From positions 1 through 64,000 of IMG/VR virus record IMGVR_UViG_3300037245_001295: a stretch of DNA of 64,000 nt; one strand, written 5' to 3'. The DNA comes from a virus. The first letter of the stretch is position 1. Each line of letters begins with the position of its first letter. Under the pieces are notes generated by a model. That model was not told where the DNA came from. It saw only the letters and a program-made list of their open reading frames with translations, and made no database searches. Both the position numbers and the translations under genes were made by a program. Of the stretch, positions 660-16,898 are shown piece by piece.

Positions 660-725
660 TCACCCTCCAAGGAAAATCGTCAGGATCACCAACCACGCCA
701 CAACCGTCACAATCGCTTCAACCAT
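660..725 (-). CDS. 21-residue membrane mini-protein
   Basis: The ATG at 725 lies inside the end of the upstream gene, overlapping by eight bases. The product is almost wholly hydrophobic (MVEAIVTVVAWLVILTIFLGG), a single membrane span. The ribosome site for the next mini-gene (GGAGGG) is formed by its own last codons and stop, a compact arrangement that argues this is a real coupled gene. The sequence upstream of its own start is only a weak site (GAGGT). Confidence 0.55.
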   Translation of the reverse strand: MVEAIVTVVAWLVILTIFLGG

Positions 726-1154: not shown

Positions 1155-1164
1155 CGGTACAATC

Positions 1165-1497: not shown

Positions 1498-1499
1498 AA

Positions 1500-1622
1500 T
1501 CAGACCCCTCCTCGGCACGGTGGTACAAGTGACATAATCCGCACAGGTGGTTTTTCCGTGCGAGCCGTTCGATTCCCTGCGACCAGCAGCAGCATCAGCG
1601 TAATCAGTAGAATCGTGAACAT
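1500..1622 (-). CDS. 40-residue membrane mini-protein
   Basis: ATG at 1622 follows GAGG about nine bases upstream. It starts MFTILLITLMLLLVAGNRTA, a strong single membrane span, followed by a basic, proline-containing tail (EKPPVRIMSLVPPCRGGV). The GAGGAGGGG inside its last codons serves the next gene at 1497, so both are read from one message. Function unknown. Confidence 0.65.
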   Translation of the reverse strand: MFTILLITLMLLLVAGNRTARTEKPPVRIMSLVPPCRGGV

Positions 1623-1633
1623 CGGATCAATCC

Positions 1634-1726
1634 TCAAAATCGGCCAGTGTTGGCGGGTCCGGCTGTCAGTAGGGCAAGCGCCCCGACGATTGCGACCATG
1701 GTTGCGATTGCGATTAGTGTGGCCAT
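1634..1726 (-). CDS. 30-residue membrane mini-protein, first gene of the leftward operon
   Basis: ATG at 1726 follows GGGAG at eight bases. The product (MATLIAIATMVAIVGALALL, then a short polar end) is one membrane span. It is the first gene downstream of the leftward early-type promoter near 1778, which gives a leader of about 45 bases. Function unknown. Confidence 0.65.
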   Translation of the reverse strand: MATLIAIATMVAIVGALALLTAGPANTGRF

Positions 1727-1764
1727 TGTCTCGACTCCCTGTGTGGTTCGCGTGGTTTCCTTCT

Positions 1765-1802
1765 CTATTACAAGTATACAACATTTCCCCCACAAGTCCA
1801 GA
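1765..1802 (-). promoter_or_regulatory. leftward early-class promoter
   Basis: On the minus strand the sequence reads TATACTTGTAATAG, identical to the -10 and start region of the rightward early promoters at 4963, 7041, 8120 and 8649. The -35 position carries a poor match (TGGACT about 16 bases upstream). It is well placed to express all genes down to 286. Confidence 0.8.
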
Positions 1803-2160
1803 AAGAAACCGAGAAACCGATTAACGGGGTCGTGCCGACTATCGGGGTCGTGCCGATGATCCGGGGGTCGCGACGCCGGGCAACCGGCATGACCCCGACA
1901 ATACCACGCATCCGGGCATCCAGGCCCTACAGGTCATTTTACCATGCTGAGCCCATTCGATCGTAATAAGCCCTACAACCCCGAGCCTGAGGTACTACAA
2001 GCAGGACGACCGGTGCAGGCGGGTAACCGTCATAAGTGGCCTGCACCCTGCCCCCCATAAGTATGACCTTTCCCCCCATCGTGGCTATTGACAGGCATGG
2101 CGGCCCGATTGTGCCGGTCGTGCCGATTATGCAGGCACCCGACAGGATACCCCCTCCATC
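1803..2160. other. non-coding GC-rich spacer with degenerate short repeats
   Basis: No frame here has a ribosome site or protein-like composition. The stretch is built from variants of a nine-base word, such as CGGCACGAC, CGGCATGAC and CGATTATGC, on both strands. Some pair as hairpins (for example around GTCGTGCCG/CGGCATGAC at 1830-1905). It separates the leftward operon from the repeat cluster at 2161. Confidence 0.6.
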
Positions 2161-2183
2161 GGGTGGGGTCGTTGACACCACCC
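2161..2183. promoter_or_regulatory. near-perfect palindrome centred on GTT (operator-like)
   Basis: GGGTGGGGTC-GTT-GACACCACCC is an inverted repeat with ten-base arms and one mismatch. A perfect version is present at 2521-2543. The two enclose the 54-base repeats. Symmetric sites of this size are typical of dimeric DNA-binding proteins, but a structured RNA is also possible. Confidence 0.6.
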
Positions 2184-2201
2184 GAAAGGACTACCCCTAT
2201 T

Positions 2202-2370
2202 GGGGGTCCACCCCTGTGGGTGGTTGACAAGTCCCCCATCTTTACCCCGCCGTTTGGGGGTCCACCCCTGTGGGTGGTTGACAAGTCCCCCATCTTTACC
2301 CCGCCGTTTGGGGGGTCCACCCCTGTGGGTGGTTGACAAGTCCCCCATCTTTACCCCGCCGTTTGGGGGG
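2202..2370. repeat. three tandem copies of a 54-55 base repeat
   Basis: Each unit has a hairpin CCACCC-CTGT-GGGTGG followed directly by TTGACAAG, then CCCCCATCTTTACCCC and a second G/C hairpin around CCGTTTGGGG. Copies start near 2202, 2256 and 2311 and differ almost only by one extra G. The TTGACAA matches the -35 box of the early promoters, yet no TATACT follows within 16-18 bases, so the units are not complete promoters. They have no spacers and are not a CRISPR array. Confidence 0.95.
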
Positions 2371-2543
2371 AAACGTCATAACCCCGAGAATCAGTACAAT
2401 CGGAACCCCTCCTTCGGGGGGAAACATCATAAGGCCTACAACCCCGATAATCGTTACCCCTCTTCTGGGGGGTCCACCCCTGTGGGTGGTTGACAAGGCA
2501 CCACAGGTGGGGGTTCTATCGGGTGGTGTCGTTGACACCACCC
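2371..2543. repeat. divergent repeat copies, hairpins and perfect 10-base-arm palindrome
   Basis: Two segments GGGGGGAAAC-TCATAA (2365-2380 and 2417-2433) are followed by short hairpins CCCC-TCCTTC-GGGG and CCCC-TCTTCT-GGGG. A fourth copy of the hairpin plus TTGACAA lies at 2467-2497. A perfect inverted repeat, GGGTGGTGTC-GTT-GACACCACCC, closes the block at 2521-2543. No coding potential seen. Confidence 0.8.
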
Positions 2544-2623
2544 ACAGGAGGGGAAGCGACCAGGATAACCGATACAACCGGCCGCGTGTGGGCGTCTCGC
2601 GGTAGCGCACCCCCCATAGTGAC

Positions 2624-2655
2624 TAGGAATCCCCTCTCCAGAGGGGTTGACAGCC
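2624..2655. promoter_or_regulatory. hairpin followed by TTGACA
   Basis: CCCCTCTCCAGAGGGG forms a tight hairpin and is followed at once by TTGACAG. It repeats the hairpin-then-TTGACA layout of the 54-base units with a different stem sequence, which suggests the layout itself matters. It sits directly before the AGTGGATAA cluster. Confidence 0.6.
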
Positions 2656-2658
2656 TCA

Positions 2659-2980
2659 CAGAGTGGATAATCGGAATTCTATCCACTACCCCTTTGTACA
2701 CTACAATCGTCGTAAACGCTACTATAGTAGCATATATCGCAGAGTGGATAACCGGGCGAGTGGATAGCCCCTATCTCCCCCATATAGAAACTATTCACTA
2801 TATTCTCTACAGATCTTTCTTATACTATTATCCACTCAAAACTAACTATCTCTATAAGAAGATAGGTCAGAACCACTGTAAAACTAGGGTTTTCCTGCAT
2901 AATCGACGCGTCAATCACAACCGATTGTAGTGGATAATGAGTGGATAATGAGTGGATAAACGGGCTTAGAGTGGATAGAA
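2659..2980. repeat. cluster of DnaA-box-like AGTGGATAA elements (candidate origin A)
   Basis: About nine copies of AGTGGATA(A/G), on both strands, occur near 2661, 2680, 2742, 2758, 2828, 2929, 2940, 2951 and 2970, within AT-rich DNA (2690-2880). The reverse complement TTATCCACT differs from the bacterial DnaA box TTATCCACA only at the last base. The same element is clustered again at 58261-58590. A replication origin or iteron array is the natural reading, but binding of host DnaA versus a phage protein cannot be told apart. Confidence 0.75.
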
Positions 2981-3952
2981 TGATGGTATCTGTCATGTTG
3001 ATTGTGCCGGTTGGGACAGAACACCTGTCAATCCGTACAGTCCTACAAATCAGCACACCCCGCAGATGCCGCGTAGTCCTTGGGACTATACCAGCCAGAA
3101 GACCCGTAACGCCTGCACCAGTTAGAAGATTCCACCTATTCCTTAAATATTACCTAACTATTACATTCGTCACAACCCGCAGGGCTCATACAATCTATTT
3201 CTTCCCTACATTCTATCCAGCCCACCTGTCATTATAACCGATACTATCCGACCCCTAACGGCTATGAGCCCTGTAGGGCGCATACCGGTCCTCGGGGTCG
3301 TGCCGGTCGTGACGATCGCCGCGCCCGCCCGCCCCGACCCCGAGGACTCATACAATCATTATCATCATGCTGATCGTCGCGATCGGCACGACCGTCATAA
3401 CCGGACCCGCAGCCCGCCCCGCTCAGCAACCGGCACAACCGGTACAGGTGGCTATCTTTCCTGACCCCGAGGATCGTTGTAATCGGCACAATCACCACAA
3501 CCCGCAGGTGTCGGTATGATAGGTACAATCATCACAGCCTGCTGTATCAAGTATGTGGAGTGTCCCGGTTGTACCGGTGGTGCGGGTCGTCGGGGTCGTG
3601 CCGGTAGTAACGTGGTGCGGTGTGCCAGCGGCAGCCGGTTGTAGTGATGGTACTAGCTGTGCTAGCTGTGAGGATGGTGACGATGGTGCGGGTTGCGGGT
3701 GGGTTAAACGAGAGAGGGGTAACCCCACCCCCCGGTAGGGGTATCTACTAGCCCTCCTCGCGGTGCTGCCAGCCCTTTTTGAGAGTGTTGACGCGTCATC
3801 TACTCGCGGCCACCCCAGGCACCACCCGCAGGTGCCATAGAGTATAAGGCCTCGTTCGCGGCCACCTGAGGCGGGGGGTGGGGTCAAATCGGGCCGATGT
3901 TTCGCGGAGGCCATGAGCCCTGCGGTAAAGATCGGATTTTTTGTTTTTTCAC
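2981..3952. other. long non-coding spacer upstream of the early block
   Basis: Open frames here lack ribosome sites and have Arg/His/Thr/Pro-rich, repeat-like products, so I call no gene. Part 1 (2990-3240) is rich in nine-to-ten-base variants of CCGTACAGTC. Part 2 (3260-3700) carries dense copies of GTCGTGCCGGT and CGGCACAATC. Part 3 (3700-3900) is G/C-rich with the pair ACTCGCGGCCACC / GTTCGCGGCCACC. The last 70 bases turn AT-rich ahead of the first early promoter. Confidence 0.6.
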
Positions 3953-3987
3953 TTGACAAAGGTGGCCCGGTAGGGTATACTTGTAAT
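3953..3987 (+). promoter_or_regulatory. early-class promoter P1, probably giving a leaderless message
   Basis: TTGACA (3953-3958) and TATACT (3976-3981) are separated by 17 bases, a canonical sigma70 layout. The usual start point, about seven bases after the -10 box, falls on the A of the ATG at 3988. There is no room for a ribosome site, so the first gene is likely translated from a leaderless transcript. Confidence 0.9.
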
Positions 3988-4563
3988 ATGAGCAAGAAGT
4001 ACCCGCGAACAAACGACCGGACGACCTGCACGAAGTGCAAAGAGGAGAAGGAAGCTACGGAGTTTTATTCCAAGCCCGAGAAGCGAAACGGCTTGCGAAG
4101 TGCTTGTATAGCGTGTGAAAAAATCAGAGATAAGGGTCGTCGGAAACACCCATGTTCCGAGAACCCGCAGGAGTGTGTACAATGCGGCGAAGTCAAGGCG
4201 GCAGCGGAGTTTGCCCTTTGTCCGGGAAATAAGAGTGGGCTGAGGGGCGAATGTATGGCGTGCGGCAGGATTGCCCGGCGAAGGCGTCTGTACGGAATCA
4301 CCCCCGAGACTCATTTGCGGATGCTTGACGCACAAAACTACGAGTGCATCTGTGGGAAACCCATTACTGTATCTGACGACCTCGACCACTGCCACACAAC
4401 CGGCAGGCTTCGCAACATTCTCTGCGCAGCCTGTAATCGTCTAATCGGGCATGCAAACGATGACCCCAACCTACTAGAGAAACACGCAGAGAATCTCCGA
4501 CAACACCAGCAACTCGAAGCCCAGGGCGTCAGCCAGTGGGGCTACGTCCCGGATTCCAAGTAA
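3988..4563 (+). CDS. recombination endonuclease VII-like HNH nuclease with duplicated zinc modules (191 aa)
   Basis: The C-terminal half matches the endonuclease VII (His-Me finger) family: YGITPETHLRMLDAQ, then C120/C122, DLDHCH (131-136), LRNILCAACN (C146, C149) and NDDPNLLEKHAENL. In T4 this enzyme cleaves branched DNA; many phage relatives are homing or packaging-associated nucleases. The N-terminal half is an internal duplication of a four-Cys zinc module (C14, C17, C40, C43 and C63, C66, C89, C92), each ending in a basic patch. ATG at 3988 sits exactly at the expected transcription start. First gene of the early block; its end (PDSK) lies in the recurring linker GATTCCAAGTAACGCCC. Confidence 0.93.
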   Translation: MSKKYPRTNDRTTCTKCKEEKEATEFYSKPEKRNGLRSACIACEKIRDKGRRKHPCSENPQECVQCGEVKAAAEFALCPGNKSGLRGECMACGRIARRRRLYGITPETHLRMLDAQNYECICGKPITVSDDLDHCHTTGRLRNILCAACNRLIGHANDDPNLLEKHAENLRQHQQLEAQGVSQWGYVPDSK

Positions 4564-4635: not shown

Positions 4636-4966
4636 AGGTCTTTTGCCGCCGCACGAATGCTGGTCTCAATGGATCAATGGCATTGCCTCGGACAATGATG
4701 TCGATCGTCAGCGTATCATTGACCATATAAAGGTCCATGTTGAGCAACACATGCCGCCAAAAGACGCGCCAGCACAGCGTTGGACTCAGTGGCTTACAGG
4801 CACTTACAATCTGCTCGGCATCCTGCAACAACTGACGGCCGGTACGCCAACTTTTGCGCTTGGACTGGATCGCCTCTTTCGGAAATGGGCAAAAGACCCG
4901 TTCGATCATACACCACCACCAACAGGATTGGTAGATACCGTTCGCACACACTGCGAATCTACTTGA
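4625..4966 (+). CDS. hypothetical early protein (113 aa)
   Basis: The frame starts at ATG 4625 after AGGAAG. The product is soluble and helical, with two related Trp-containing segments (ECWSQWINGIASDND and QRWTQWLTGTYNLL). No family recognised. Its stop TGA (4964-4966) lies inside the TTGACA of the next promoter, an arrangement repeated at 8121 and 8650. Confidence 0.75.
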   Translation: MTRKGLLPPHECWSQWINGIASDNDVDRQRIIDHIKVHVEQHMPPKDAPAQRWTQWLTGTYNLLGILQQLTAGTPTFALGLDRLFRKWAKDPFDHTPPPTGLVDTVRTHCEST

Positions 4967-4997
4967 CAAACGCCCAGAGTGTGGTATACTTGTAATA
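4963..4997 (+). promoter_or_regulatory. early-class promoter P3
   Basis: TTGACA (4963-4968) is followed after 16 bases by TATACT (4985-4990) and the conserved TGTAATAG start region, then a ribosome site GAGGATAAC for the gene at 5010. The -35 box contains the stop codon of the upstream gene. Confidence 0.9.
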
Positions 4998-5250: not shown

Positions 5251-5344
5251 GGGCGGGTGGCGAAATTGGTAGACGCACCCGGCTAATACTGGGTTAGGTG
5301 GTACGCGACCACTACGTATGCAGGTTCGAGTCCTGCCCCGCCCA
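5251..5344 (+). tRNA. class II tRNA with unusual 6-base anticodon loop (Leu-like; anticodon AAT or TAA)
   Basis: Acceptor GGGCGGG/CCCGCCC, a three-pair D stem with Leu-style TTGGTAGACGCA, long variable arm (GTGG...CCAC) and a perfect T arm (GCAGG-TTCGAGT-CCTGC) give a good tRNA fold; discriminator A, CCA not encoded. The anticodon stem CCCGG/CTGGG encloses only six bases, CTAATA. Counting from U33 gives AAT (Ile codon). If the missing base is at position 32, TAA (Leu UUA). The D arm, A73 and long variable arm fit charging by LeuRS. It follows a degenerate copy of the early promoter linker (5217-5245). Confidence 0.75.
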
Positions 5345-5371
5345 CTTGACAAACACCCGCAGGAGAACAAC

Positions 5372-5725
5372 ATGACGCCCACAGAGACAGAAGTTCTAGC
5401 CCTTTACAAACAACTTGACCCGTCGCGACTGGCCGGCGAGACGATTGCATGTGTTTACCACGATGACTACACGCTCGTCATGGTCACTGAATCTGAAAAA
5501 TACGTCAAGTTGGGCGCACCTGATGACGACCGCCTTGATTTTGAATCACTCACCGTCCTCGATCTGAAATGCATGCGGCTAATCGACCTAGATACCTGGG
5601 AACAAATACTGGCCGAGCGAAAAACGAGCCAGAGGACGCGAAGGCGGTCTGATGCCGAAATCACCATAGCTCGACTCGTCTTAGAACATGGGGCCGACAC
5701 GATTCGAGACTTGATCCGAGAATAA
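5372..5725 (+). CDS. hypothetical early protein (117 aa)
   Basis: The start is ATG 5372 after AGGAGAACAAC. An in-frame upstream ATG at 5318 lies inside the tRNA and is rejected. The first half looks beta-rich (ETIACVYHDDYTLVMVTESE), the second is helical and basic (LAERKTSQRTRRRSDAE) with a last helix IARLVLEHGADTIRDLIRE. It follows a spacer beginning TTGACAAACACCCGC that lacks a -10 box, so it is probably co-transcribed with the tRNA. Unknown function. Confidence 0.8.
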   Translation: MTPTETEVLALYKQLDPSRLAGETIACVYHDDYTLVMVTESEKYVKLGAPDDDRLDFESLTVLDLKCMRLIDLDTWEQILAERKTSQRTRRRSDAEITIARLVLEHGADTIRDLIRE

Positions 5726-5726: not shown

Positions 5727-5882
5727 ATGAATGCTTTGAAATCCCATACCGTCTTGATCGAACCATGCGACGGCGGCTTTGTCACTGTCGAAGTTCGAGT
5801 TTACGAGGACGCCTGGATTGAATTGTTCTTTGACGGGCAGCTATTGCACAGTCGTCCAGCCCTGTCACGGGTAGCAGTATGA
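5727..5882 (+). CDS. small hypothetical protein (51 aa)
   Basis: ATG at 5727 follows the upstream stop by one base (TAACATG), and the stop overlaps the next start as ATGA at 5879. The protein (MNALKSHTVLIEPCDGGFVT ... VYEDAWIELFFDGQLL) is predicted beta-strand rich and short. The tight spacing on both sides supports it as a coupled gene. No family recognised. Confidence 0.65.
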   Translation: MNALKSHTVLIEPCDGGFVTVEVRVYEDAWIELFFDGQLLHSRPALSRVAV

Positions 5883-6154
5883 TGAGACCTGTAATGAAGA
5901 AGATCATGTTGTGGACAGTTATTCTGGATGCTGATTATACAGCTTGGCAGCGGAATTTCATGTTTAAGCCCACGTTGATCGACCTCCTCACCATTGTGGA
6001 GGAACAAGCCCAGACCGCAGCAACGGCCCCGCTGTTGGAACTTGTGCGGGGGGCTCAGGGGGTTGACCCCGACATCCATGACTCGGGCAGCTTGACGTAT
6101 CATGCCGAGGGCGGCGTGATATTTATCTACCAAAATGAGGCCATCGCGAAATGA
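5879..6154 (+). CDS. family A early protein, member 1 (91 aa)
   Basis: It carries the family A signature: LWTVILD, then AWQRNFMFKPTLIDLL (W-x3-F-x3-P-T-x2-D) near the N terminus, a variable helical middle, and a C-terminal GGVIFIYQNEAIAK corresponding to the G-x-I...Y end of the others. Eight further members lie at 8326-12546, so this copy is separated from the main cluster by two kilobases. Function is unknown. The start overlaps the upstream stop; a second Met (MKKIMLW) seven residues in may be the real start. Confidence 0.8.
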   Translation: MMRPVMKKIMLWTVILDADYTAWQRNFMFKPTLIDLLTIVEEQAQTAATAPLLELVRGAQGVDPDIHDSGSLTYHAEGGVIFIYQNEAIAK

Positions 6155-6741
6155 ATAACATGCCACCCCTATCAGAACTGATTGCGAGAGCGCGGCGAAA
6201 CCAAATCGTTGTCGGCCTGGACCTGCAACGGCTACTCGGGGAAGCCGAGCGGCTGCAAGAGATCGACCGCGAGCAATTGAAAGGCAAAGCCAAGGACTGG
6301 AAGATTCGCTTAGGCAATCTGGACATGATGGCCGGCGAGATGCTTAGCACCCCCGACGCCGAAGCACTACTCGCCAAGGCACAGGCAGCGAATCTCGCAA
6401 TCAACGAATTGCGAGATTCGCTCAATCTGGCAATATCTGGTGAGGTCGAGGTGCCCATCGAGGTGCCCATCGAGGAGATCAACACGCCAGTGTTGCATCG
6501 GCCGGGGGTGTGGATTACGCCAGTGTTGCAGCGGGCGGGGAGCCGCAAGCGGGAACTCTATAAGGTTCCAACAGGAACGGGTGGGGTTGAGTGGCTCGGA
6601 ACTGTGGTGCCAAACGGAGTCAGGTGGGATTGGTGCCGGCACAATTCAGAGGTATATGACTGGGACGGTGAGCGTGGCGGCACTGAGGACACCTTGGAGC
6701 AAGCGAAGGCCAAAGTCATGGAGGGGTGGGATTCCAAGTAA
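6151..6741 (+). CDS. hypothetical early protein with internal repeats (196 aa)
   Basis: ATG 6151 overlaps the previous stop (ATGA). Residues 1-90 are helical (LSELIARARRNQIVVGLDLQ, LAKAQAANLAINELRDSL). The middle has two short direct repeats, EVPIEVPIEE and TPVLHRPGVWI/TPVLQRAG, matched by near-identical DNA repeats. The C-terminal part is rich in Trp and Gly (VEWLGTVVPNGVRWDW ... YDWDGERGG) and reads like a small beta domain. Ends in the DSK linker. No family recognised. Confidence 0.85.
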   Translation: MNNMPPLSELIARARRNQIVVGLDLQRLLGEAERLQEIDREQLKGKAKDWKIRLGNLDMMAGEMLSTPDAEALLAKAQAANLAINELRDSLNLAISGEVEVPIEVPIEEINTPVLHRPGVWITPVLQRAGSRKRELYKVPTGTGGVEWLGTVVPNGVRWDWCRHNSEVYDWDGERGGTEDTLEQAKAKVMEGWDSK

Positions 6742-6768
6742 CGCCCAAAGCACCCGTAGGGGATCACA

Positions 6769-7032
6769 ATGATTGATAGGATTTTGCAAGATGGCTTCGG
6801 GATGATTACCTGCGGGGATCACCTCGGCGTCTTCGTCTCACCCCTCAGGCAGGTGGGAAGGACGCCTCCGGGGTGGGTCTTTGTACCGAGCGAGACAATG
6901 ACTGCTGAGATTCTGCAAGAGGCCATCGACTGTGCCAAGAGCGGCCGGTCGGACTGGCCCAAAGCAGAGAAGCAACCAAAGGCTAAGATAACCAACCGGC
7001 GGAAGAAAGCAGCGCACATCCGCAGGCTGTAA
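6769..7032 (+). CDS. small hypothetical protein with basic tail (87 aa)
   Basis: ATG at 6769 follows GTAGGGGATCAC. The N-terminal half is beta-like (GFGMITCGDHLGVFVSPLRQ), followed by one helix (TAEILQEAIDCAKSG) and a Lys/Arg-rich tail (KAEKQPKAKITNRRKKAAHIRRL) suited to nucleic-acid binding. The preceding linker contains GATTCCAAGTAACGCCC without a complete promoter, so it is likely read from upstream. Confidence 0.8.
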   Translation: MIDRILQDGFGMITCGDHLGVFVSPLRQVGRTPPGWVFVPSETMTAEILQEAIDCAKSGRSDWPKAEKQPKAKITNRRKKAAHIRRL

Positions 7033-7040
7033 GATTCCAC

Positions 7041-7075
7041 TTGACAAACGCCCGCAATGTGGTATACTTGTAATA
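7041..7075 (+). promoter_or_regulatory. early-class promoter P5
   Basis: TTGACA (7041-7046), 16 bases, TATACT (7063-7068) and TGTAATAG. The expected start point is only about seven bases before the tRNA-Tyr, so the primary transcript would need little 5' trimming; small protein genes follow on the same message. Confidence 0.9.
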
Positions 7076-7081
7076 GAACAA

Positions 7082-7165
7082 GCGTCGGTTGGGCATTGGC
7101 AGGCCTCGCTGGCTGTAAACCAGTCATCCTTACGGATCGTGGCGGTTCGACTCCGCCCCGGCGCA
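7082..7165 (+). tRNA. tRNA-Tyr (GTA)
   Basis: Acceptor GCGTCGG/CCGGCGC (one G-U pair), anticodon stem GCTGG/CCAGT with loop CTGTAAA (anticodon GTA), a variable arm ATCC-TTAC-GGAT typical of class II Tyr tRNAs, and T arm GGCGG-TTCGACT-CCGCC. Discriminator A; CCA not encoded. It is the first transcript element after promoter P5. Confidence 0.92.
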
Positions 7166-7184
7166 CTAACCCTTGGAGAATAAC

Positions 7185-7364
7185 ATGTTGATCGTTTACA
7201 CCGGCCTTGATGAAGTTTTGGTCTGTCTCAGTGTCCGCGAAGCCGAAATGCGCGCCATTTGGTTTGCACCTGGCGCAGGGCGGGATGTCGATGATTACGA
7301 CCGCGAGGTATCCTCCACAGGGATTGTGGCAATCTCTTCTCGAATGAGCGTTGATTTAGACTAA
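7185..7364 (+). CDS. small acidic hypothetical protein (59 aa)
   Basis: ATG 7185 follows TTGGAGAATAAC; an in-frame TTG upstream is less likely. The protein is beta-rich and acidic (MLIVYTGLDEVLVCLSVREA ... GAGRDVDDYDREVSSTGIVAI). Located between tRNA-Tyr and the two membrane proteins of family D. Function unknown. Confidence 0.75.
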   Translation: MLIVYTGLDEVLVCLSVREAEMRAIWFAPGAGRDVDDYDREVSSTGIVAISSRMSVDLD

Positions 7365-7379
7365 CCCAAGGATTCAAAC

Positions 7380-7622
7380 ATGCTTCCTTATATCGCACTA
7401 TGGCTCGCTACCGTGCCAGTGGCCTACTGTCTATTTTACCTGATTTTCAAAAGGCTTGGTTCCTGGAGAAGGGGCGACGTAGTATATTTTACCCTCTTCT
7501 GCGTGGGCTTCGGCCCTGTCGCGCTGTTCATAGCTCTCAAGGAGTTGGCGGACATTTTCACTGCGAAACTAAGAATCCGTAAGGCCTTGTCCGACTGGGC
7601 GGGCCGCTTAGCAAAGTGGTAG
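7380..7622 (+). CDS. family D membrane protein, copy 1 (80 aa)
   Basis: Two membrane spans (PYIALWLATVPVAYCLFYLI and VVYFTLFCVGFGPVALFIAL) separated by a short basic loop, then a basic tail ending WAGRLAKW. Copy 2 at 7652 shares the first 29 bases of coding DNA exactly and the same end ([A/S]KW). A third copy lies on the other strand at 53116. A holin-like or host-membrane role is possible, but two-span topology alone does not show it. Confidence 0.85.
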   Translation: MLPYIALWLATVPVAYCLFYLIFKRLGSWRRGDVVYFTLFCVGFGPVALFIALKELADIFTAKLRIRKALSDWAGRLAKW

Positions 7623-7651
7623 AAACCAACAGAACCCAAGGAGAACACAAG

Positions 7652-7891
7652 ATGCTTCCTTATATCGCACTATGGCTCGCCGCCGCAATAGCGGCCTACT
7701 ACCTGTTTCGCTGGGATTGTAAGACGTTTGCGATCTGGATAAACAGTGACGTAATATTTTTCAGCACCATCTGTCTGATCTTTTCCCCTGTCACATTGCT
7801 CGTAGCACTCGTGTGGACGGGCATCCTCGTTATGCAACGAAGTGCCGGAACGAGGTTGTCCAACTGGCTTGACCGCCCATCAAAGTGGTAG
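7652..7891 (+). CDS. family D membrane protein, copy 2 (79 aa)
   Basis: Starts MLPYIALWLAAAIAAYYLF, almost identical to copy 1 and preceded by AAGGAGAACAC. The second span is VIFFSTICLIFSPVTLLVAL. The tail ends NWLDRPSKW. The identical 5' coding sequence and diverged remainder point to a tandem duplication followed by rapid change. Role unknown. Confidence 0.85.
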   Translation: MLPYIALWLAAAIAAYYLFRWDCKTFAIWINSDVIFFSTICLIFSPVTLLVALVWTGILVMQRSAGTRLSNWLDRPSKW

Positions 7892-7901
7892 GGAGAACAA
7901 C

Positions 7902-8123
7902 ATGAACGACATCATCGAACTGTGTGACGAATTAGCGTGCAACTTCGCCTACAGCCACCGGCAAGATCGTCTACCGTGGGCGCAAACTCTATATAGACAT
8001 GTGTGGCGTATCGAGGGTGTCAGAGAAGGGGAATCAAATGACGGCCGATCCGAGAGCTTAGCGGATTGCTTACAAGGGTGCAAAAAGTGGTTGCTTCAAA
8101 TTAAGTCCAAGAGATTGGCTTGA
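7902..8123 (+). CDS. family C early protein, copy 1 (73 aa)
   Basis: ATG 7902 follows GGGAGAACAAC. The start (NDIIELCDELACNFAYS) and end (ADCLQGCKKWLLQIKSKRLA) match the protein at 9519-9737 (EIIDLCLELECTCSYN, LDSCLQTALDCLKQIKAQR), with a Trp-rich segment between them. Several conserved Cys could bind metal or form disulphides. The stop TGA lies within the TTGACA of promoter P6. Confidence 0.8.
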   Translation: MNDIIELCDELACNFAYSHRQDRLPWAQTLYRHVWRIEGVREGESNDGRSESLADCLQGCKKWLLQIKSKRLA

Positions 8124-8154
8124 CAAACCCGCAGGATAGTGTATACTTGTAATA
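8120..8154 (+). promoter_or_regulatory. early-class promoter P6
   Basis: TTGACA (8120-8125), 16 bases (AACCCGCAGGATAGTG), TATACT (8142-8147), TGTAATAG, then the ribosome site GGAGGAG for the gene at 8168. The spacer is the same as in P7 and differs from the CGCCC spacers of P3 and P5. Confidence 0.9.
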
Positions 8155-8167
8155 GGAGGAGACGCGG

Positions 8168-8329
8168 ATGAATTACGTAGTAGCAGGGCTTGAAGGTGTT
8201 GGATTAGGCGTGTTGGCAGTCGTAGCCATCATTACCACCCCGATATGGTTGCCCCTTTGGCTCCTGGGCTATCGTGCGGCCCCGACCAAGTCTCAAATCG
8301 CAGAGCATATCGTAAGGAATTCGCGATGA
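8168..8329 (+). CDS. family E single-span membrane protein, copy 1 (53 aa)
   Basis: ATG 8168 has a strong ribosome site (GGAGGAG). One long hydrophobic span contains GVLAVVAIITTPIWLPLWLLGY, broken here only by description. The P-I/L-W-L-P-L/F-W-L-L motif recurs in the 48-residue protein at 9368. The short C-terminal tail is polar (KSQIAEHIVRNSR). Its stop overlaps the next start (ATGA), coupling it to a family A gene. Confidence 0.75.
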   Translation: MNYVVAGLEGVGLGVLAVVAIITTPIWLPLWLLGYRAAPTKSQIAEHIVRNSR

Positions 8330-8652
8330 ACACAACAAAAATATGGCACGTCGCAGTCAAGACTGACTCAAACTTCAGGTGGCAGGGAATCTTTGCCTTT
8401 GAGCCAACTTTGCTTGACGTTGAAAGCGCCGTACACGGTGCCATCATTGCGGCCGACCTCAAATGTAAACGCAACCGCCCGCCCGATGAGTCTCTCCAGG
8501 AGTATTGGGAGTGTTTGAAGCGAGTCCGAGAAGTGTTGCTCCAGGCGAGTGATCTTTCTGATTACTCTAACTGGCACTCGGTTATGAATGGCCGAGTAGA
8601 AGTTGGCACCATCTATGTGTGGGGAGACAAACTATACACGGAATCCATTTGA
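8326..8652 (+). CDS. family A early protein, member 2 (108 aa)
   Basis: Clear signature: IWHVAVKTD, FRWQGIFAFEPTLLDVESAV, a helical middle (PDESLQEYWECLKRVREVLL) and the end VEVGTIYVWGDKLYTESI. The long helical insert makes it one of the largest members, like members 8 and 9. The start overlaps the membrane gene's stop. The DNA around its start (GGAATTCGCGATGAACA) is repeated before the family B gene at 8696, a mark of cassette shuffling. Confidence 0.85.
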   Translation: MNTTKIWHVAVKTDSNFRWQGIFAFEPTLLDVESAVHGAIIAADLKCKRNRPPDESLQEYWECLKRVREVLLQASDLSDYSNWHSVMNGRVEVGTIYVWGDKLYTESI

Positions 8653-8683
8653 CAAACCCGCAGGATAGTGTATACTTGTAATA
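8649..8683 (+). promoter_or_regulatory. early-class promoter P7
   Basis: TTGACA (8649-8654), the same 16-base spacer as P6, TATACT (8671-8676), TGTAATAG and GAGGAATTCGCG before the ATG at 8696. The stop TGA of the upstream gene (8650-8652) is inside the -35 box. Confidence 0.9.
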
Positions 8684-8695
8684 GAGGAATTCGCG

Positions 8696-8941
8696 ATGAA
8701 CAGAACAAACACAATTTACCTAGTGACGCCTCCCTTTGAACGCCACGTGCTTGAAGGGTTCGCGACCGACGTTGAAGGTATCAAGCAGATTATGCGGAAT
8801 CACTACCACACGCACTTTGCCTACCCCAACATAGACGTGTCCATAGACATGGAAGCTTTGACCGTGACGGCGTCCGCACAACATTACGTGAAAATGTACC
8901 ACATCCGAGTAATCAAGAGGGCCGTATGCTCCACTGCATAG
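8696..8941 (+). CDS. family B early protein, copy 1 (81 aa)
   Basis: Layout shared with 9117 and 10059: NTIYLVTPPF at the start, LEGFATDVEGIKQIMRNHY as a strand-helix unit, then IDVSIDMEALTVTA and a final strand MYHIRVIKR. A compact alpha/beta fold is likely. First gene after promoter P7, so it should be well expressed. No known family recognised; function unknown. Confidence 0.85.
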   Translation: MNRTNTIYLVTPPFERHVLEGFATDVEGIKQIMRNHYHTHFAYPNIDVSIDMEALTVTASAQHYVKMYHIRVIKRAVCSTA

Positions 8942-9120
8942 AAATCACAGACGACTATCACATGGGCACGGCGGGGCGGCTTTGGGTATTCCTCGACATC
9001 GCGTCAGACATGTTCCTCAAGACGGACTGCGGGCGTCATGTGTTCAACCGCGAGGAGATCGAGGAGCACGCGCGAGTGTCAGAACTCAGGCGACTGATTT
9101 TTGGGGGAGAGAGAGTATGA
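8926..9120 (+). CDS. small hypothetical protein (64 aa)
   Basis: It starts at ATG 8926 inside the end of the family B gene, with AGAGGG just upstream, and ends with TGA overlapping the next ATG. The front is beta-like (CIEITDDYHMGTAGRLWVFL), the rest helical and charged (REEIEEHARVSELRRLIFGG). Not similar to the neighbouring families. Overlaps at both ends support coupled translation. Confidence 0.75.
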   Translation: MLHCIEITDDYHMGTAGRLWVFLDIASDMFLKTDCGRHVFNREEIEEHARVSELRRLIFGGERV

Positions 9121-9374
9121 ACACCATCTACCTCGTGACGCCCAGCTTTTGCCACTGGGAGGGCAAGCTTGAAGGATTTGCGACCGATGCTGAAGGCATT
9201 GAGCAGATTGTCCAGGATCGCTACCTCAAACACTACCACTATCTCGGCCGTCAGCGTATCGGGCCAATCAACGTGCAAGTAGACATGTCTAAGTTCACAG
9301 TATTTGTGCGTGTGCCCAAGATCGGTCATAAACAAACCTACTACATCCGAGAGATCGGGAGAAAGATATGTTAG
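9117..9374 (+). CDS. family B early protein, copy 2 (85 aa)
   Basis: Starts at the ATGA overlap (9117) with GGGGGAGAGAG upstream. It contains NTIYLVTPSF, KLEGFATDAEGIEQIVQDRY, NVQVDMSKFTVFV and the ending TYYIREIGRK. It is closer to copy 3 in its last strand (YYIREI) and to copy 1 in its first half. Slightly longer than the others by a loop after the central helix (LGRQRIG). Unknown function. Confidence 0.85.
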   Translation: MNTIYLVTPSFCHWEGKLEGFATDAEGIEQIVQDRYLKHYHYLGRQRIGPINVQVDMSKFTVFVRVPKIGHKQTYYIREIGRKIC

Positions 9375-9514
9375 ACAAACTGTGGTATGACCTCCTGGGC
9401 AATGCGGATGATGTCATTGAAGATGTTCTTCACGGCGTCGGGGTAATTCTTCTCGTACTGACCGCGCCTCTGTGGCTACCGTTTTGGCTCCTTACCTACT
9501 TCATCAACAGGTGA
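9368..9514 (+). CDS. family E single-span membrane protein, copy 2 (48 aa)
   Basis: ATG 9368 overlaps the end of the upstream gene by seven bases. An acidic amphipathic front (DKLWYDLLGNADDVIEDVL) is followed by a membrane span with LTAPLWLPFWLLTYFINR, the motif also seen in copy 1 at 8168. Too short for most gene finders. No ribosome site is obvious beyond GGGAGAAAG about seven bases upstream. Confidence 0.65.
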   Translation: MLDKLWYDLLGNADDVIEDVLHGVGVILLVLTAPLWLPFWLLTYFINR

Positions 9515-9518
9515 TAAC

Positions 9519-9737
9519 ATGACGCCAGAGATCATCGACCTGTGCCTAGAGTTGGAATGCACCTGCTCCTACAACTGTGAATGGCAATACACGGACCGCC
9601 CTGTGCTAAAGCACTGGTGGTACATCGCCAGCATTAGGCCTCGGGAATCCAACTGTTCCATCAACGCCTGCCTAGACTCTTGCTTGCAGACGGCCTTGGA
9701 TTGTCTGAAACAGATCAAAGCCCAGAGGACGCCATGA
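9519..9737 (+). CDS. family C early protein, copy 2 (72 aa)
   Basis: ATG 9519 follows AGGTGATAAC. IIDLCLELECTCSYNCEW, KHWWYIASIRPRESN and LQTALDCLKQIKAQ align with copy 1 at 7902, with nine Cys in this copy. It is followed by an 18-residue coupled frame and then a family A gene, whereas copy 1 is followed by a promoter and a family E gene. Confidence 0.8.
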   Translation: MTPEIIDLCLELECTCSYNCEWQYTDRPVLKHWWYIASIRPRESNCSINACLDSCLQTALDCLKQIKAQRTP

Positions 9738-9790
9738 CCGCAGATGAACTCCGACGCACGAAGGGCGAACGAGCCTGGAGGGACCAGTAA
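9734..9790 (+). CDS. 18-residue mini-ORF
   Basis: ATG 9734 overlaps the previous stop (ATGA), has AGAGG at good spacing, and ends TAATG into the next start. It encodes MTADELRRTKGERAWRDQ. Its main effect may be to pass ribosomes on to the family A gene at 9790. Whether the peptide itself matters is unknown. Confidence 0.45.
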   Translation: MTADELRRTKGERAWRDQ

Positions 9791-10062
9791 TGAACGTGTG
9801 GAAAATCTGCATCGAGACAGTTAATCAATTGTGGTGGCACGAAGCCCCCATCACACCTTGCTGGCAGTATATCCTAGCCGTGCTGCGGGAAGAAATGTCT
9901 GATGACAACAACCTGCACGAATCAATTGAACTTGTGCAATATCTTATGGTGTATCACAGCATAGGATTTGTGGGGACTACGAATAAGGAATTTGTCGCCA
10001 AGATCGCTGGCACCTGCGTCGGCACCGTTGAGATCAGGCGTGTAACGCGGGAGACGCTATGA
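9790..10062 (+). CDS. family A early protein, member 3 (90 aa, divergent)
   Basis: The start NVWKICIETVNQLWWHEAPIT departs from the usual W-x3-F-x3-PT motif, but length, position, a helical middle (ESIELVQYLMVYHS) and the end CVGTVEIRRVT fit the family. It is coupled by TAATG to the upstream mini-ORF and by ATGA to a family B gene. The altered front half could mean a changed binding face or relaxed selection. Confidence 0.75.
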   Translation: MNVWKICIETVNQLWWHEAPITPCWQYILAVLREEMSDDNNLHESIELVQYLMVYHSIGFVGTTNKEFVAKIAGTCVGTVEIRRVTRETL

Positions 10063-10307
10063 TCGACGCCATCTATCTCGTGACGCCATCCAAGGGATAT
10101 TTGGATGACATTTTTGAAGGGTTCGCGGCCGGTGCCCGGGGCGTTGAGCGAATTGTGCGAGATCATTACCGCACGTATTCATACATCGAGTTGACCAGTG
10201 TGCGAGTCGATATGGACGAGCGTACAGTGGTAGCGATCGAGGAGGACGGCGACGAACGGACCTATTACATCCGAGAGATTAGGAGGCATGCTGATGAACA
10301 AGACTGA
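10059..10307 (+). CDS. family B early protein, copy 3 (82 aa)
   Basis: AIYLVTPSKG, IFEGFAAGARGVERIVRDHY, SVRVDMDERTVVAIEEDG and TYYIREIRRH place it firmly in family B. It starts in an ATGA overlap and its end overlaps the next family A gene. Its last codons carry AGGAGG, the ribosome site of that gene. Function unknown. Confidence 0.85.
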   Translation: MIDAIYLVTPSKGYLDDIFEGFAAGARGVERIVRDHYRTYSYIELTSVRVDMDERTVVAIEEDGDERTYYIREIRRHADEQD

Positions 10308-10593
10308 ATTTTGGGTAATCCATGTGACGGTCCAGACACTATCGTGGGAAGGTAAATTCACGGCCCAGCCGAAGTTGCGCGATGTACTCGCCGCATTGAC
10401 TGAGGAAAATCTACGCGAACGATATGCCACCTTGATCGAACTTGTGGAATACACCATCAACGTTACCACGGGACACAGTGCGGCGTTCGCCCTCCCAAAG
10501 GCCGTGAAGATCGCGGGCTGTATAATCGGAACATTTGCCTCGCGGATAGACCGGGCGTACAACAACGACCTAGAACTCTCGGAGGCGTGCTGA
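10294..10593 (+). CDS. family A early protein, member 4 (99 aa)
   Basis: AGGAGG lies at 10281-10286, so ATG 10294 (seven bases away) is preferred over ATG 10288. Signature: FWVIHVTVQTLSWEGKFTAQP, with K in place of T in PT, LRDVLAALT, and IIGTFASRIDRAY near the end, with a short additional tail. Followed by TGATG coupling to member 5. Members 4-8 form an unbroken tandem run. Confidence 0.85.
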   Translation: MNKTEFWVIHVTVQTLSWEGKFTAQPKLRDVLAALTEENLRERYATLIELVEYTINVTTGHSAAFALPKAVKIAGCIIGTFASRIDRAYNNDLELSEAC

Positions 10594-10880
10594 TGGATAC
10601 TGACACAGTCTGGACGGTAACGATTAACTCGCTCGCCCCAGGCGCCCGTGCTTGGCAGCGCCGCTTCCTTGGTAAGCCGATTATCCACGACATCAGGGAC
10701 GCATTGGAACACGAGGGCAAACAGCCAGAGGGTTCGGTCGAAGTCTTCGCTGACCTTGCGTCCCGCCTGCCCGTGTGTTTTCACGAGAAGGCTATGAACG
10801 GCCGTGGCTACATTATCTATGCCGCCCAGGTCGAAATTGGCAGCGTCAGTCTCAAGGAGTGGGAGGTTTACACGCGATGA
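10593..10880 (+). CDS. family A early protein, member 5 (95 aa)
   Basis: ATG 10593 (TGATG overlap) with GGAGG seven bases upstream. Signature: VWTVTINSL, ARAWQRRFLGKPIIHDIRDAL, a short middle, and VEIGSVSLKEWEVYTR. The C-terminal E-x-Y-T-R is shared with member 6, so 5 and 6 may be the most recent duplicates. Role unknown. Confidence 0.85.
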   Translation: MDTDTVWTVTINSLAPGARAWQRRFLGKPIIHDIRDALEHEGKQPEGSVEVFADLASRLPVCFHEKAMNGRGYIIYAAQVEIGSVSLKEWEVYTR

Positions 10881-11173
10881 GACGAGTGACTTACTGGAGA
10901 GTGATGGTCTACATCATAGCCTCACGCACGACTTGGACTCGGAGCTTCGGATTCAAGCCAATGATGGAGGACATCCTAAATGCCCTCTACGCAGAGTGGA
11001 ACGGAGGTGCGCCGTGGTCAAAGCTATGCCGCGACCTCAGGTTGTTTGTCGCAGTTGCCGACCGTGCCCCGTTCGATTTTTCCGACGACTCCGGCACCCA
11101 CTGTGTCGTAGAAATCGAGGACACCCCCGTTGGCCATATCCGCATGAAGAAAGAGGAGATGTACACACGATGA
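10877..11173 (+). CDS. family A early protein, member 6 (98 aa)
   Basis: Starts in an ATGA overlap. YWRVMVYII, TTWTRSFGFKPMMEDILNAL and the end VGHIRMKKEEMYTR match the family. The middle has WSKLCRDLRLFVAVADRAPF and an acidic loop (DDSGTH). The C-terminal motif is G-H-I rather than G-T-I. Confidence 0.85.
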   Translation: MRRVTYWRVMVYIIASRTTWTRSFGFKPMMEDILNALYAEWNGGAPWSKLCRDLRLFVAVADRAPFDFSDDSGTHCVVEIEDTPVGHIRMKKEEMYTR

Positions 11174-11481
11174 ACATACTACCGAGTAAGACTTACGTGT
11201 ATGAAGTGACCCTGGCGACGACTAACGGTCCAAACTGGACCCGAAGCTTCACGTTCGACCCGACCCTAGCAGACATCGTGGCCACGTTGAAACTTGAGGT
11301 GAAGTATTCAACCTTCTGCGCTATTGGGCGATACCTGAAACGGCTGATTGAGCTAATAGATTACATCCCCAACGGGTCGAACTGGGCGGTGCGAAGCGTT
11401 CCCTACGCTATCAGTGCTGTCGGGACAACGCTCGGAACCATTTATCGCAGTAAAACGGAGGCGTACGAGAAATGCAAGTAG
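11170..11481 (+). CDS. family A early protein, member 7 (103 aa)
   Basis: ATGA overlap at 11170. YVYEVTLATT, PNWTRSFTFDPTLADIVATL, a helix (RYLKRLIELIDYIP) and TTLGTIYRSKTEAYEKCK. This copy is a good reference for the family since every signature position is present except W to Y in the first strand. Confidence 0.87.
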   Translation: MNILPSKTYVYEVTLATTNGPNWTRSFTFDPTLADIVATLKLEVKYSTFCAIGRYLKRLIELIDYIPNGSNWAVRSVPYAISAVGTTLGTIYRSKTEAYEKCK

Positions 11482-11798
11482 CAAAGACGTGGAAAGTTTC
11501 TGTCGCGACAGTCCACAACGGCGAGTGGAAGGGGATATTCCTCTTCCAACCAACCAGTCAGGATGTGATAAACGCCATCTCAGGCGTCATCACAGACGGG
11601 CAGCGGGAGTTGGAGCGGTGCGATCCCGGAGACGCGGACGAAGTTGAATCCTATCAGGAACGTCTACGGCATTTGCGAGACGTGGCGCAGCACGCGATGC
11701 ACGGCTTCGCGAACACGGAAGTCCGTAAGCGGATTCTCGTAGCGGGCACCCTTGTTGGAACCATCCGAGTATCCTTTGAACGAGCGTTTATCAAATGA
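11472..11798 (+). CDS. family A early protein, member 8 (108 aa)
   Basis: ATG 11472 overlaps member 7 by ten bases, with GGAGG upstream. TWKVSVATVHNGEWKGIFLF, QPTSQDVINAI, a long acidic helix (DEVESYQERLRHLRDVAQ) and LVGTIRVSFERAFIK. It ends the five-gene tandem run (members 4-8) and couples to a short helical gene. Confidence 0.87.
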   Translation: MQVAKTWKVSVATVHNGEWKGIFLFQPTSQDVINAISGVITDGQRELERCDPGDADEVESYQERLRHLRDVAQHAMHGFANTEVRKRILVAGTLVGTIRVSFERAFIK

Positions 11799-11944
11799 AC
11801 AACAGCAACACGAACGTAATAGTACAGTCTGTGATCGACTTGGCCAAGGCGGCTAAGCTAGCCTTGGAGATCGTGTATGAGAGAGAACAGGCCCGCCTGG
11901 ACAAAGCCATCGCGGATGGCGAGGAGCTATTGAAAGATGCCTGA
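11795..11944 (+). CDS. small helical protein (49 aa)
   Basis: Starts in an ATGA overlap and ends over the start of the family F gene. The product is a single long amphipathic helix (VIDLAKAAKLALEIVYEREQ, LDKAIADGEELLKDA), coiled-coil like. Function unknown; might assemble with a neighbour. Confidence 0.7.
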   Translation: MNNSNTNVIVQSVIDLAKAAKLALEIVYEREQARLDKAIADGEELLKDA

Positions 11945-12245
11945 ATTCGAGAAAGACCCCAGCGGACAGGCGAGTTGCCGCAACCGCGTAGTATGCAACG
12001 ATGATCCGTGGTCCAAGGATGACTGTGCGAAGTTCAAAAGATACTGCCGCTACAGCGAGGACTGCCGAGTCCCGATCCCGGTGAAAGAGGGGATTAAGGT
12101 GGAAATACCGCCGCGTGACTGGCTGCTGGCACGATTAGGGGCCACGGGCGGAATCGCCCCAGAGTATGGCATCGCCATGCTGGACAGAATCGAGCAACTG
12201 GAACGTGACCTGGGGGTGGCAAATGAAACCAGCAATCGCACATAA
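11937..12245 (+). CDS. family F Cys-rich early protein, copy 1 (102 aa)
   Basis: The N-terminal half has a zinc-finger-like pattern, SCRNRVVCNDDPWSKDDC, then YCRYSEDCRVPIPV, shared with 12543-12866 (SCRYRLPPDDDP, CQYCEDCRVTIP). The C-terminal half is helical (GIAMLDRIEQLERDLGVAN). Metal binding is likely from the Cys spacing; the role is unknown. Overlaps the next family A gene by 23 bases. Confidence 0.82.
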   Translation: MPEFEKDPSGQASCRNRVVCNDDPWSKDDCAKFKRYCRYSEDCRVPIPVKEGIKVEIPPRDWLLARLGATGGIAPEYGIAMLDRIEQLERDLGVANETSNRT

Positions 12246-12546
12246 GGTGACTGTCTCCACGCGGGGCGGCAATGTATGGGCCGGGCGATTCGTGGGGAAA
12301 CCGACGCGCAAAGACGTAGTCGCCGCCATTCAGTACGGCATTGACGCAGTCGTGAAGAATTTGGGTAAAAAGTGCGGGGACATAGGTTACTATACGTGGC
12401 GGCTGCGTGAGGCTTTGGAGATCATGGCGAATGCACCGTCCTACTTCGCCATGGATGATCGCGAGTACAGAATCGAGGTGGGAGCCACTTTGATCGGGAC
12501 GATTCAAACCCTCAGGTGTACGGTGTATATTGAGGACGCAGAATGA
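12223..12546 (+). CDS. family A early protein, member 9 (107 aa)
   Basis: HKVTVSTRGGNVWAGRFVGKPTRKDVVAAI, given here as two pieces, HKVTVSTRGG and VWAGRFVGKPTRKDVVAAI, followed by a helix (YTWRLREALEIMANAP) and LIGTIQTLRCTVYIEDAE. It sits between the two family F genes, an F-A-F arrangement. The start is inside the end of the first F gene. Last recognised copy of the family. Confidence 0.85.
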   Translation: MKPAIAHKVTVSTRGGNVWAGRFVGKPTRKDVVAAIQYGIDAVVKNLGKKCGDIGYYTWRLREALEIMANAPSYFAMDDREYRIEVGATLIGTIQTLRCTVYIEDAE

Positions 12547-12866
12547 TCGAACATCAACAAGACGCCGATGGAGTCGTAAGTTGCAGGTACCGACTACCGC
12601 CGGACGACGACCCCAACACAATAGGGTGGTGTATGTTGCGTAAGGAACCCTGCCAGTATTGCGAGGATTGCCGAGTCACGATCCCGACAAATCTCTCGCT
12701 GGTAGTCAATGCAGCGGAGGAACTGGTGACGGCTTCGCACGAGCTTGTGGAGATCATGGTGGACCTGGGCTACGACCGCGAGGGAAGCTGCCGCGAAGAC
12801 TTGGACGCAGCACGGAAGGCACTGACCACTGTCAAAGCTATCCTCAAACATCAGGAGGAAGCGTGA
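12543..12866 (+). CDS. family F Cys-rich early protein, copy 2 (107 aa)
   Basis: ATGA overlap with the previous gene. The Cys motif (SCRYR...DDDP, WCMLRKEPCQYCEDCRVTIP) is followed by two helices (AAEELVTASHELVEIMVDLG, EDLDAARKALTTVKAILKH). It ends over a GTG start, and its last codons provide AGGAGG for that gene. Confidence 0.82.
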   Translation: MIEHQQDADGVVSCRYRLPPDDDPNTIGWCMLRKEPCQYCEDCRVTIPTNLSLVVNAAEELVTASHELVEIMVDLGYDREGSCREDLDAARKALTTVKAILKHQEEA

Positions 12867-13966: not shown

Positions 13967-14175
13967 AACATGCAGAACCCACAGTCGATCACTTAGAGCG
14001 AATAGCCGACTACGAAACTACATCCGTCTACAACTTCATATCACTGCGGCATGTGCTCGACTTCTTTAAGGAGCGGGGGGTTGATCTTGACGACGTCTTT
14101 ATCGAAGGCTCATACGGCGGAAGCAGCCCTACTGAGGACGACTGCCCGGTATTTACTTGGAGGCACCCACAATGA
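13963..14175 (+). CDS. small hypothetical protein (70 aa)
   Basis: Starts and ends in ATGA overlaps. Helical front half (DHLERIADYETTSVYNFISL, HVLDFFKERGVDLDDVFI) and a short beta-like end (CPVFTWRHPQ). Unknown role; co-translated with the HD hydrolase gene that follows. Confidence 0.72.
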   Translation: MKHAEPTVDHLERIADYETTSVYNFISLRHVLDFFKERGVDLDDVFIEGSYGGSSPTEDDCPVFTWRHPQ

Positions 14176-14690
14176 ACATCATCCAACATGCCGCACAGCT
14201 TGCAAACGCCTTGCACAGAGGGCAGACCCGAGCCTGCGGCGAGCCTTACATTAACCACCCGCTGCGGGTGGCCGGAGCGGTGACGCTCCTCGACGATGCC
14301 ACAGAAGATATGATCGCGGTGGCGTGGCTCCATGACGTGTATGAAGACACCCTCTTCAGCGCGCCGTCATTGGTGAATCCTTTCGGCCATCCCGTAAATG
14401 AGATGGTCGTAGAACTGACGAACAGGTTCACCAAGGAAGCCTTTCCAGCATTAAACCGTGCGAAGCGGAAGGCGTCTGAGACTTGGCGTCTGGCTAGCAT
14501 CCCGCCGCAAGCACAGATCATCAAGCTCTGTGATCGCATTGACAACCTGAGGACAATCGGAGCCAAGGGGCGGGGGTTCGCGTTGCTCTACTGTGACGAG
14601 AGTGACGCCCTCGCGAAGGCACTGACCGCTGCTCCAGACCTCCAGGAGGAAATTTTCAAACTTACCCAGGAGCTTAGAGCCAATGGATAA
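14172..14690 (+). CDS. RelA/SpoT-like HD-domain hydrolase (172 aa)
   Basis: The protein is a single HD domain of the (p)ppGpp hydrolase type: ALHRGQTRACGEPYINHPLR (His29), AVAWLHDVYEDT (His54-Asp55, Glu58-Asp59) and KLCDRIDNLR (Asp121), with the spacing of small alarmone hydrolases (MESH1/SpoT). It lacks a synthetase domain. Known relatives use Mn to remove the 3' pyrophosphate of ppGpp; a phage copy could lower the host alarmone during infection, though other nucleotides are possible substrates. Starts in an ATGA overlap; embedded in the early operon. Confidence 0.88.
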   Translation: MNIIQHAAQLANALHRGQTRACGEPYINHPLRVAGAVTLLDDATEDMIAVAWLHDVYEDTLFSAPSLVNPFGHPVNEMVVELTNRFTKEAFPALNRAKRKASETWRLASIPPQAQIIKLCDRIDNLRTIGAKGRGFALLYCDESDALAKALTAAPDLQEEIFKLTQELRANG

Positions 14691-16361: not shown

Positions 16362-16898
16362 ATGAGTAGAACCGATCCCAACGACCCCCGTCGCTGCGAA
16401 GCGACCACCCAATCGGGTCAATGTGCCCATCAAGCTGTTGATGGGCAGAATCTTTGCGCCTACCACATGAAGGATCGCGATGTAGAGGACAAGATGTCTC
16501 TGCGTAGCTACATCCTCACAGACACGGTGCTGGCGGAGTCTGCCGGGCGTCATAGTCAGGTCGAGGAACTGAAATCCCTCCGCGAAGAAATCGCTATCTG
16601 CCGCTCCCTTGTCGAGCGGCGTTTGAATATGATCGAGAGCAACGCCGATTTGCTGGCCGCAGTCGGGCAGGTGAACTCGCTCTTTCTCACGCTTGAGAAA
16701 CTCATCTCAAGTTGCCACCGGCTGGAGACCAGCCTTGGCACATTGCTTTCCCGATCCTCTCTGCTGGAACTTGCGAAGGGTATCGTGGGCACCATCATGG
16801 ACGAGTTGGAAGGCATTGATAACTACGAGGAGATCGTTGACACGATCAGCGAGAAAATCCTTAGGCAGATTGCCAGCTACGACCCTGACGAGAAGTAA
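16362..16898 (+). CDS. zinc-knuckle protein, possible small-terminase-type or regulatory protein (178 aa)
   Basis: The front carries a Cys/His cluster, RRCEATTQSGQCAHQAV and LCAYHMKD, as in small phage proteins encoded near packaging genes that hold a C-x(n)-C...C-x2-H site. The rest is helical (EELKSLREEIAICRSLVERR, ELAKGIVGTIMDELEGIDN) and could oligomerise. It is the first gene after the second-class promoter. TerL is twelve kilobases away, so a TerS role is only one option; DNA-binding regulator is another. Confidence 0.8.
   Translation: MSRTDPNDPRRCEATTQSGQCAHQAVDGQNLCAYHMKDRDVEDKMSLRSYILTDTVLAESAGRHSQVEELKSLREEIAICRSLVERRLNMIESNADLLAAVGQVNSLFLTLEKLISSCHRLETSLGTLLSRSSLLELAKGIVGTIMDELEGIDNYEEIVDTISEKILRQIASYDPDEK

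Follow-up and report, generated by a model that had tools for sequence, protein, structure and literature searches.

An array of diverged small paralogous genes, new to the libraries searched, in an uncultured tailed phage

The window analyzed here comprises the 64,000 nucleotides at positions 1 to 64,000 of the IMG/VR virus record IMGVR_UViG_3300037245_001295, which is 124,740 bases long in total. Between 5894 and 12546 (about 6.7 kilobases, kb), the plus strand carries nine small genes, A1 to A9, whose products form, judged from sequence profiles, one homologous family of paralogs, hereafter family A. Our results suggest that family A arose by lineage-specific expansion of a small scaffold with one domain, located in a probable early, hypervariable accessory region. 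Tentatively, we propose that its members are diversified binding proteins, each directed against a different host target and probably against defense. The source is an uncultured tailed phage: the terminase, portal and primase of the record match phage families, and a tape-measure-like protein has phage relatives at about 28-30% identity.

A preliminary description, made from the letters alone, had proposed a nine-gene paralogous family at this locus. All nine open reading frames were confirmed, with better start codons for A1 (5894) and A5 (10593), and leave-one-out profiles bear out the family. Each profile was built from eight members and searched against the 2,040 frames of at least 35 codons in the 124.7-kb record; in nine out of nine cases the held-out member was the next match after the eight training members, with expectation values (E) from 3.4e-5 to 5.5e-16. 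The top non-member, at E 0.007 to 0.3, was itself a plausible tenth member at genome positions 64078-64377, just outside the window (first-pass E 0.0066); this weaker member retains the W, F and P as well as the VG..Y ending. The members separate neither into unrelated families, according to the profiles, nor into different predicted folds, according to two AlphaFold models. The proposed signature is shared overall, except that A9 lacks the first W/Y and A3 the motif F and D; its C-terminal part holds for most members, with A1 lacking both the I/V preceding the C-terminal G and the final Y. A tandem run with overlaps of 1-14 bases had also been described: A4-A8 do overlap, by 1, 4, 4 and 10 bases, but the 14-base overlap joins A4 to B3, a gene of another duplicated family.

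The members are highly diverged, with identities to A8 of 17-32% and 37% for the best local pair, and the branching among them is not resolvable in a phylogeny. At identical aligned residues 41% of the codons are the same, against 36% expected from usage. Such nearly randomized codons indicate that the copies are old duplicates kept by selection at the protein level. Recent amplification was rejected because the codons are randomized and because gene-scale DNA repeats are absent from the locus, where the only repeats are of promoter or motif length.

The earlier statement that no named family shows this pattern agrees with the database searches. We found no convincing match to family A in Pfam (best E 0.039), PHROGs (best E 0.024) or NCBIfam (best E 0.0014, to a sigma-factor model and for one member only), none at all in PADLOC, and none among PDB sequences up to E 10. 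Among 50,697 phage records, the first 20 kb of the window had no match at the DNA level, and tblastn searches with A8, A6 and the member from a related phage introduced below gave nothing or chance-level matches only; a match in SPN3US (E 8) was rejected as a 219-residue protein of a different kind. As far as sequence comparison goes, family A is new to the libraries searched, and the type of array is already known in phages.

For A8, AlphaFold predicts a beta-beta-alpha-alpha-beta-beta arrangement (predicted local distance difference test, pLDDT, 88; predicted template modelling score, pTM, 0.77). When A8, A2, A9 and A7 are left out of the alignment, A6 is predicted to have the same order of elements (pLDDT 81, pTM 0.73); the members are predicted to share one fold, a one-domain scaffold. 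Foldseek matches stayed at or above E 0.2 for solved structures and at or above E 0.005 for viral models, and template modelling (TM) scores were mostly below 0.5. Uncharacterised phage proteins of about 100 residues, for example A0A191ZBT6 from Erwinia phage Special G and UPI001F141EC9, recur as top matches for both models. A relationship to these proteins is not established, with E values of 0.005-0.05, TM-scores of 0.30-0.44 and a family A profile that finds nothing in Special G. The only invariant columns are M1, W19, P27 and G96 (A8 numbering), and F23 is conserved at 90% or more; the conserved W, F, P and G look structural, as residues of the core. The lack of any invariant polar residue makes a common enzymatic function unlikely and agrees with a role in binding. 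Net charge ranges from -5.3 to +3.5, which argues against one common DNA-mimic, DNA-binding or nucleic-acid role; the idea that all members mimic DNA was rejected for this reason.

A terminase search identified 72 relatives in IMG/VR, many of whose records are fragments. Across these records one further family A gene was found, at 1120-1389 of a 21.9-kb fragment (L079), where it sits between counterparts of the genes at 5372 and 16362 that flank the array here. The interval between these conserved genes is about 10.6 kb in our record and about 2.5 kb in L079, which has one family A gene. It measures about 0.4 kb in a second relative (L081), whose terminase is 88% identical and which yet has no family A gene in the syntenic interval. 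That the intervals compared are syntenic follows from a further match of L081 to positions 97-3608 of the window, a stretch with many repeats and few genes that precedes the array. Hence the array either expanded in one lineage or was lost from the other, and decayed pieces of the second duplicated family (B) in L079 point to gene turnover. The array behaves as expected of accessory genes, dispensable and lineage-specific. Scans of IMG/VR with single members and sub-families of family A, with a family B profile and with the flanking gene at 5372 found no match; such scans reach close relatives only.

The preliminary picture of the locus stands for family A and overlooked what is duplicated around it. 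Between 7902 and 12866, 17 out of 19 genes belong to five duplicated and interleaved families, namely A (eight genes), B (three) and C, D and E (two each), and the neighboring hydrophobic (membrane) genes 7380 and 7652 form a duplicated pair. With five duplicated families and a tenth member of family A, the original observation is right and slightly understated. The B proteins have the signature IYLVTP...EGFA..G...I...Y...V..DM...TV...Y.IR.I; B1 and B2 have no match in Pfam, and B1 has none in PHROGs. Kinship between A and B was not detected (hhalign probability 0.1%). E1 and E2 have in common a cysteine pattern near the N-terminus, C...C...YC.Y.EDCRV.IP, and family E has no Pfam match; visual inspection showed openings resembling family E at 51756 and 52130.

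All five near-consensus promoters of the type TTGACA-N16/17-TATACTTGTAA (TATACT) lie between 3953 and 8681. They are the only ones of this type in the window, with none among its structural genes, and on their evidence the array region probably consists of early genes. Those at 8120 and 8649 are identical over 33 bases, and one of the sigma-70-type promoters apparently drives a long series of genes, not a single one. An endonuclease VII-family gene and two transfer RNA (tRNA) genes lie upstream of or within the array region (Table 1).

Several known systems, none of which would thereby include family A, make it reasonable to think of the array as a set of host-directed binding proteins. Phages G and 121Q carry tandem arrays of amplified small genes in large genomes, which have been read as tandem duplication (PMC5646251). 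These arrays and family A have in common that small genes were amplified within a large phage genome, but their copies are very similar, whereas identities within family A are mostly 17-37%; a family A profile has no match in 121Q and only a chance-level one in G (E 0.07, two stops). In SIRV2, an archaeal virus, amplified AcrID1 homologs occur in early-promoter arrays (PMC11065993). Both there and here small proteins are clustered, duplicated and diversified (nine paralogs in 6.7 kb for family A). The AcrID1 arrays have a known function and a repeated early promoter that is archaeal, whereas family A belongs to a tailed phage. Five near-identical sigma-70-type promoters lie at the family A locus, one of them apparently for a long run; the PDB searches of sequences and folds described above, which did not include a direct comparison with AcrID1, gave no match. 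TifA, an anti-toxin protein of 85 amino acids, is amplified under defense pressure (PMC9391042), and endonuclease-driven amplification of anti-defense loci is known from T6, where phage tRNA-Tyr counteracts Septu defense (PMC13096335). The TifA/SegB-type loci of T4 and T6 resemble the present one in their small accessory proteins and in the endonuclease genes at the locus, and a tRNA-Tyr gene lies nearby in T6 as well as here. However, those amplifications are recent, near-identical DNA repeats, whereas the family A locus has no repeats at the scale of genes. Moreover, the adjacent SegB-type endonuclease is of the GIY-YIG type and the local one belongs to the endonuclease VII family (PF02945), with GIY-YIG genes only in L079 and L081, near the matching place.

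According to our model, host RNA polymerase would transcribe the array at once from the sigma-70-type promoters. The structural core residues W, F, P and G would stay fixed in every copy as helical middle and surface diverge, and each copy would bind and block a different host protein, most likely a component of a defense system or a regulator of takeover. Recombination, perhaps helped by homing-type endonucleases at the locus, would change the number and content of the copies over time. We infer a takeover or anti-defense role from where the genes lie, their small size and diversity, the promoters and the lack of the array in a close relative. Several points weigh against it: nothing in the sequence points to a target, searches of PADLOC, Pfam and NCBIfam yield no convincing match and no anti-defense homolog, no characterised inhibitor is found among the Foldseek matches, and the conservation pattern equally fits any structural or regulatory binding role. 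The stricter proposal of a purely phage-borne inhibitor scaffold, with nine or ten co-expressed proteins of one compact fold that each block a different defense system of a host perhaps belonging to Chloroflexota and together make up a multi-target anti-defense set, is unlikely. The array alone is no evidence of a new system, and it merits testing.

Members could instead bind core host machinery, such as RNA polymerase, replication or metabolism, and turn it to the phage's use. In well-studied phages such takeover is a common role of small, diverse early proteins, and the evidence from location, size and promoters is the same as for proteins directed against defense. A role in essential machinery, however, predicts retention in close relatives, and the lack of any member in the syntenic interval of L081 makes this doubtful. 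What is also to be considered is near-neutral turnover, with a recombination-prone spot by endonuclease genes gathering low-use duplicated small genes that decay. The joint duplication of five families, the endonuclease VII-family gene here and the GIY-YIG genes near the matching place in relatives, and the decayed family B pieces would all suit such a process; yet nine out of nine A frames are still intact after their synonymous positions have become near-random, which indicates long selection on the proteins and leaves this explanation rather unlikely. We regard it as improbable that the paralogs form one hetero-oligomer or are dosage-additive copies of a single function. The overlapping genes A4-A8 are probably translationally coupled, which would balance expression, and edge strands of small beta sheets often mediate pairing; but selection for dosage would keep copies alike, whereas the low identities and widely differing charges of family A, together with the single member in the L079 fragment, speak against both versions. 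Very improbable, finally, is a decoy role, suggested in the preliminary description, in which many diverged copies of one fold would mimic a phage protein sensed by host defense and soak up the sensor, because the record's other frames contain no relative of family A except the tenth member, and an imitated phage protein is not apparent.

Should each copy of family A turn out to act on its own host target, the array would serve as a small natural library for finding unknown defense systems of uncultured bacteria. Relatives with zero or one member make the locus a clean comparison for testing the purpose of such arrays, and family A itself combines absence from the reference libraries searched with a confidently predicted fold that has no clear structural match.

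Table 1. Features of the array and its surroundings (window coordinates; aa, amino acids; LOO, leave-one-out profile search).
Feature	Position	Strand	Remarks
Sigma-70-type promoter, near-consensus	3953..3986	+	TTGACA-N17-TATACTTGTAA
Endonuclease VII family (HNH-type) recombination endonuclease gene	3988..4563	+	PF02945 E 4.7e-16
Sigma-70-type promoter	4963..4995	+	same type as 3953
tRNA gene	5251-5345		anticodon unreadable
Left flanking gene, conserved	5372..5725	+	117 aa; about 51% identical in L079 and L081
A1	5894..6154	+	86 aa; 5879 is a possible longer start; LOO E 1.7e-6
Sigma-70-type promoter	7041..7073	+	same type as 3953; directly precedes tRNA-Tyr
tRNA-Tyr gene	7082-7166		
C1	7902..8123	+	paralog of C2, E 3e-7
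Sigma-70-type promoter	8120..8152	+	C1 stop codon inside -35 box
D1	8168..8329	+	small hydrophobic, probably membrane protein; paralog of D2, E 8e-6
A2	8326..8652	+	108 aa; LOO E 7.1e-11
Sigma-70-type promoter	8649..8681	+	A2 stop codon inside -35 box; directed into B1 and the run of A genes
B1	8696..8941	+	second duplicated family; B1/B2/B3 phmmer E 1e-10 to 1e-13
B2	9117..9374	+	family B, phmmer as for B1
D2	9368..9514	+	paralog of D1
C2	9519..9737	+	paralog of C1
A3	9790..10062	+	90 aa; most divergent family A member; LOO E 3.4e-5
B3	10059..10307	+	family B, phmmer as for B1
A4	10294..10593	+	99 aa; LOO E 1.3e-8
A5	10593..10880	+	95 aa; LOO E 7.3e-9
A6	10877..11173	+	98 aa; LOO E 3.6e-10; second AlphaFold model
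A7	11170..11481	+	103 aa; LOO E 4.8e-11
A8	11472..11798	+	108 aa; LOO E 5.5e-16; first AlphaFold model
E1	11937..12245	+	cysteine-rich N-terminus; paralog of E2, E 1e-8
A9	12223..12546	+	107 aa; LOO E 4.1e-12
E2	12543..12866	+	paralog of E1
Right flanking gene, conserved	16362..16898	+	178 aa; 72-77% identical in L081 and L079

One relative of the terminase, 66% identical, is located on a 63-kb contig (L125; DYKV01000002.1) that was binned in an Anaerolinea metagenome-assembled genome, a weak hint that the phage group infects Chloroflexota. For this reason 301 Chloroflexota genomes were chosen for a search with the family A profile, which gave no match; an empty result there proves little. Upstream of the array, positions 1-3900 of the window are gene-poor and repeat-rich: GTCGGGC occurs 14 times at 1-99, and three copies of a 54/55-base unit lie at 2200-2369. 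This stretch may function as an origin or in packaging. The probable early region further contains a gene for an HD-domain phosphohydrolase at 14169-14690 (PF13328, E 1e-13; PHROG 990), which may hydrolyze (p)ppGpp or nucleotides and has a homolog in L082.

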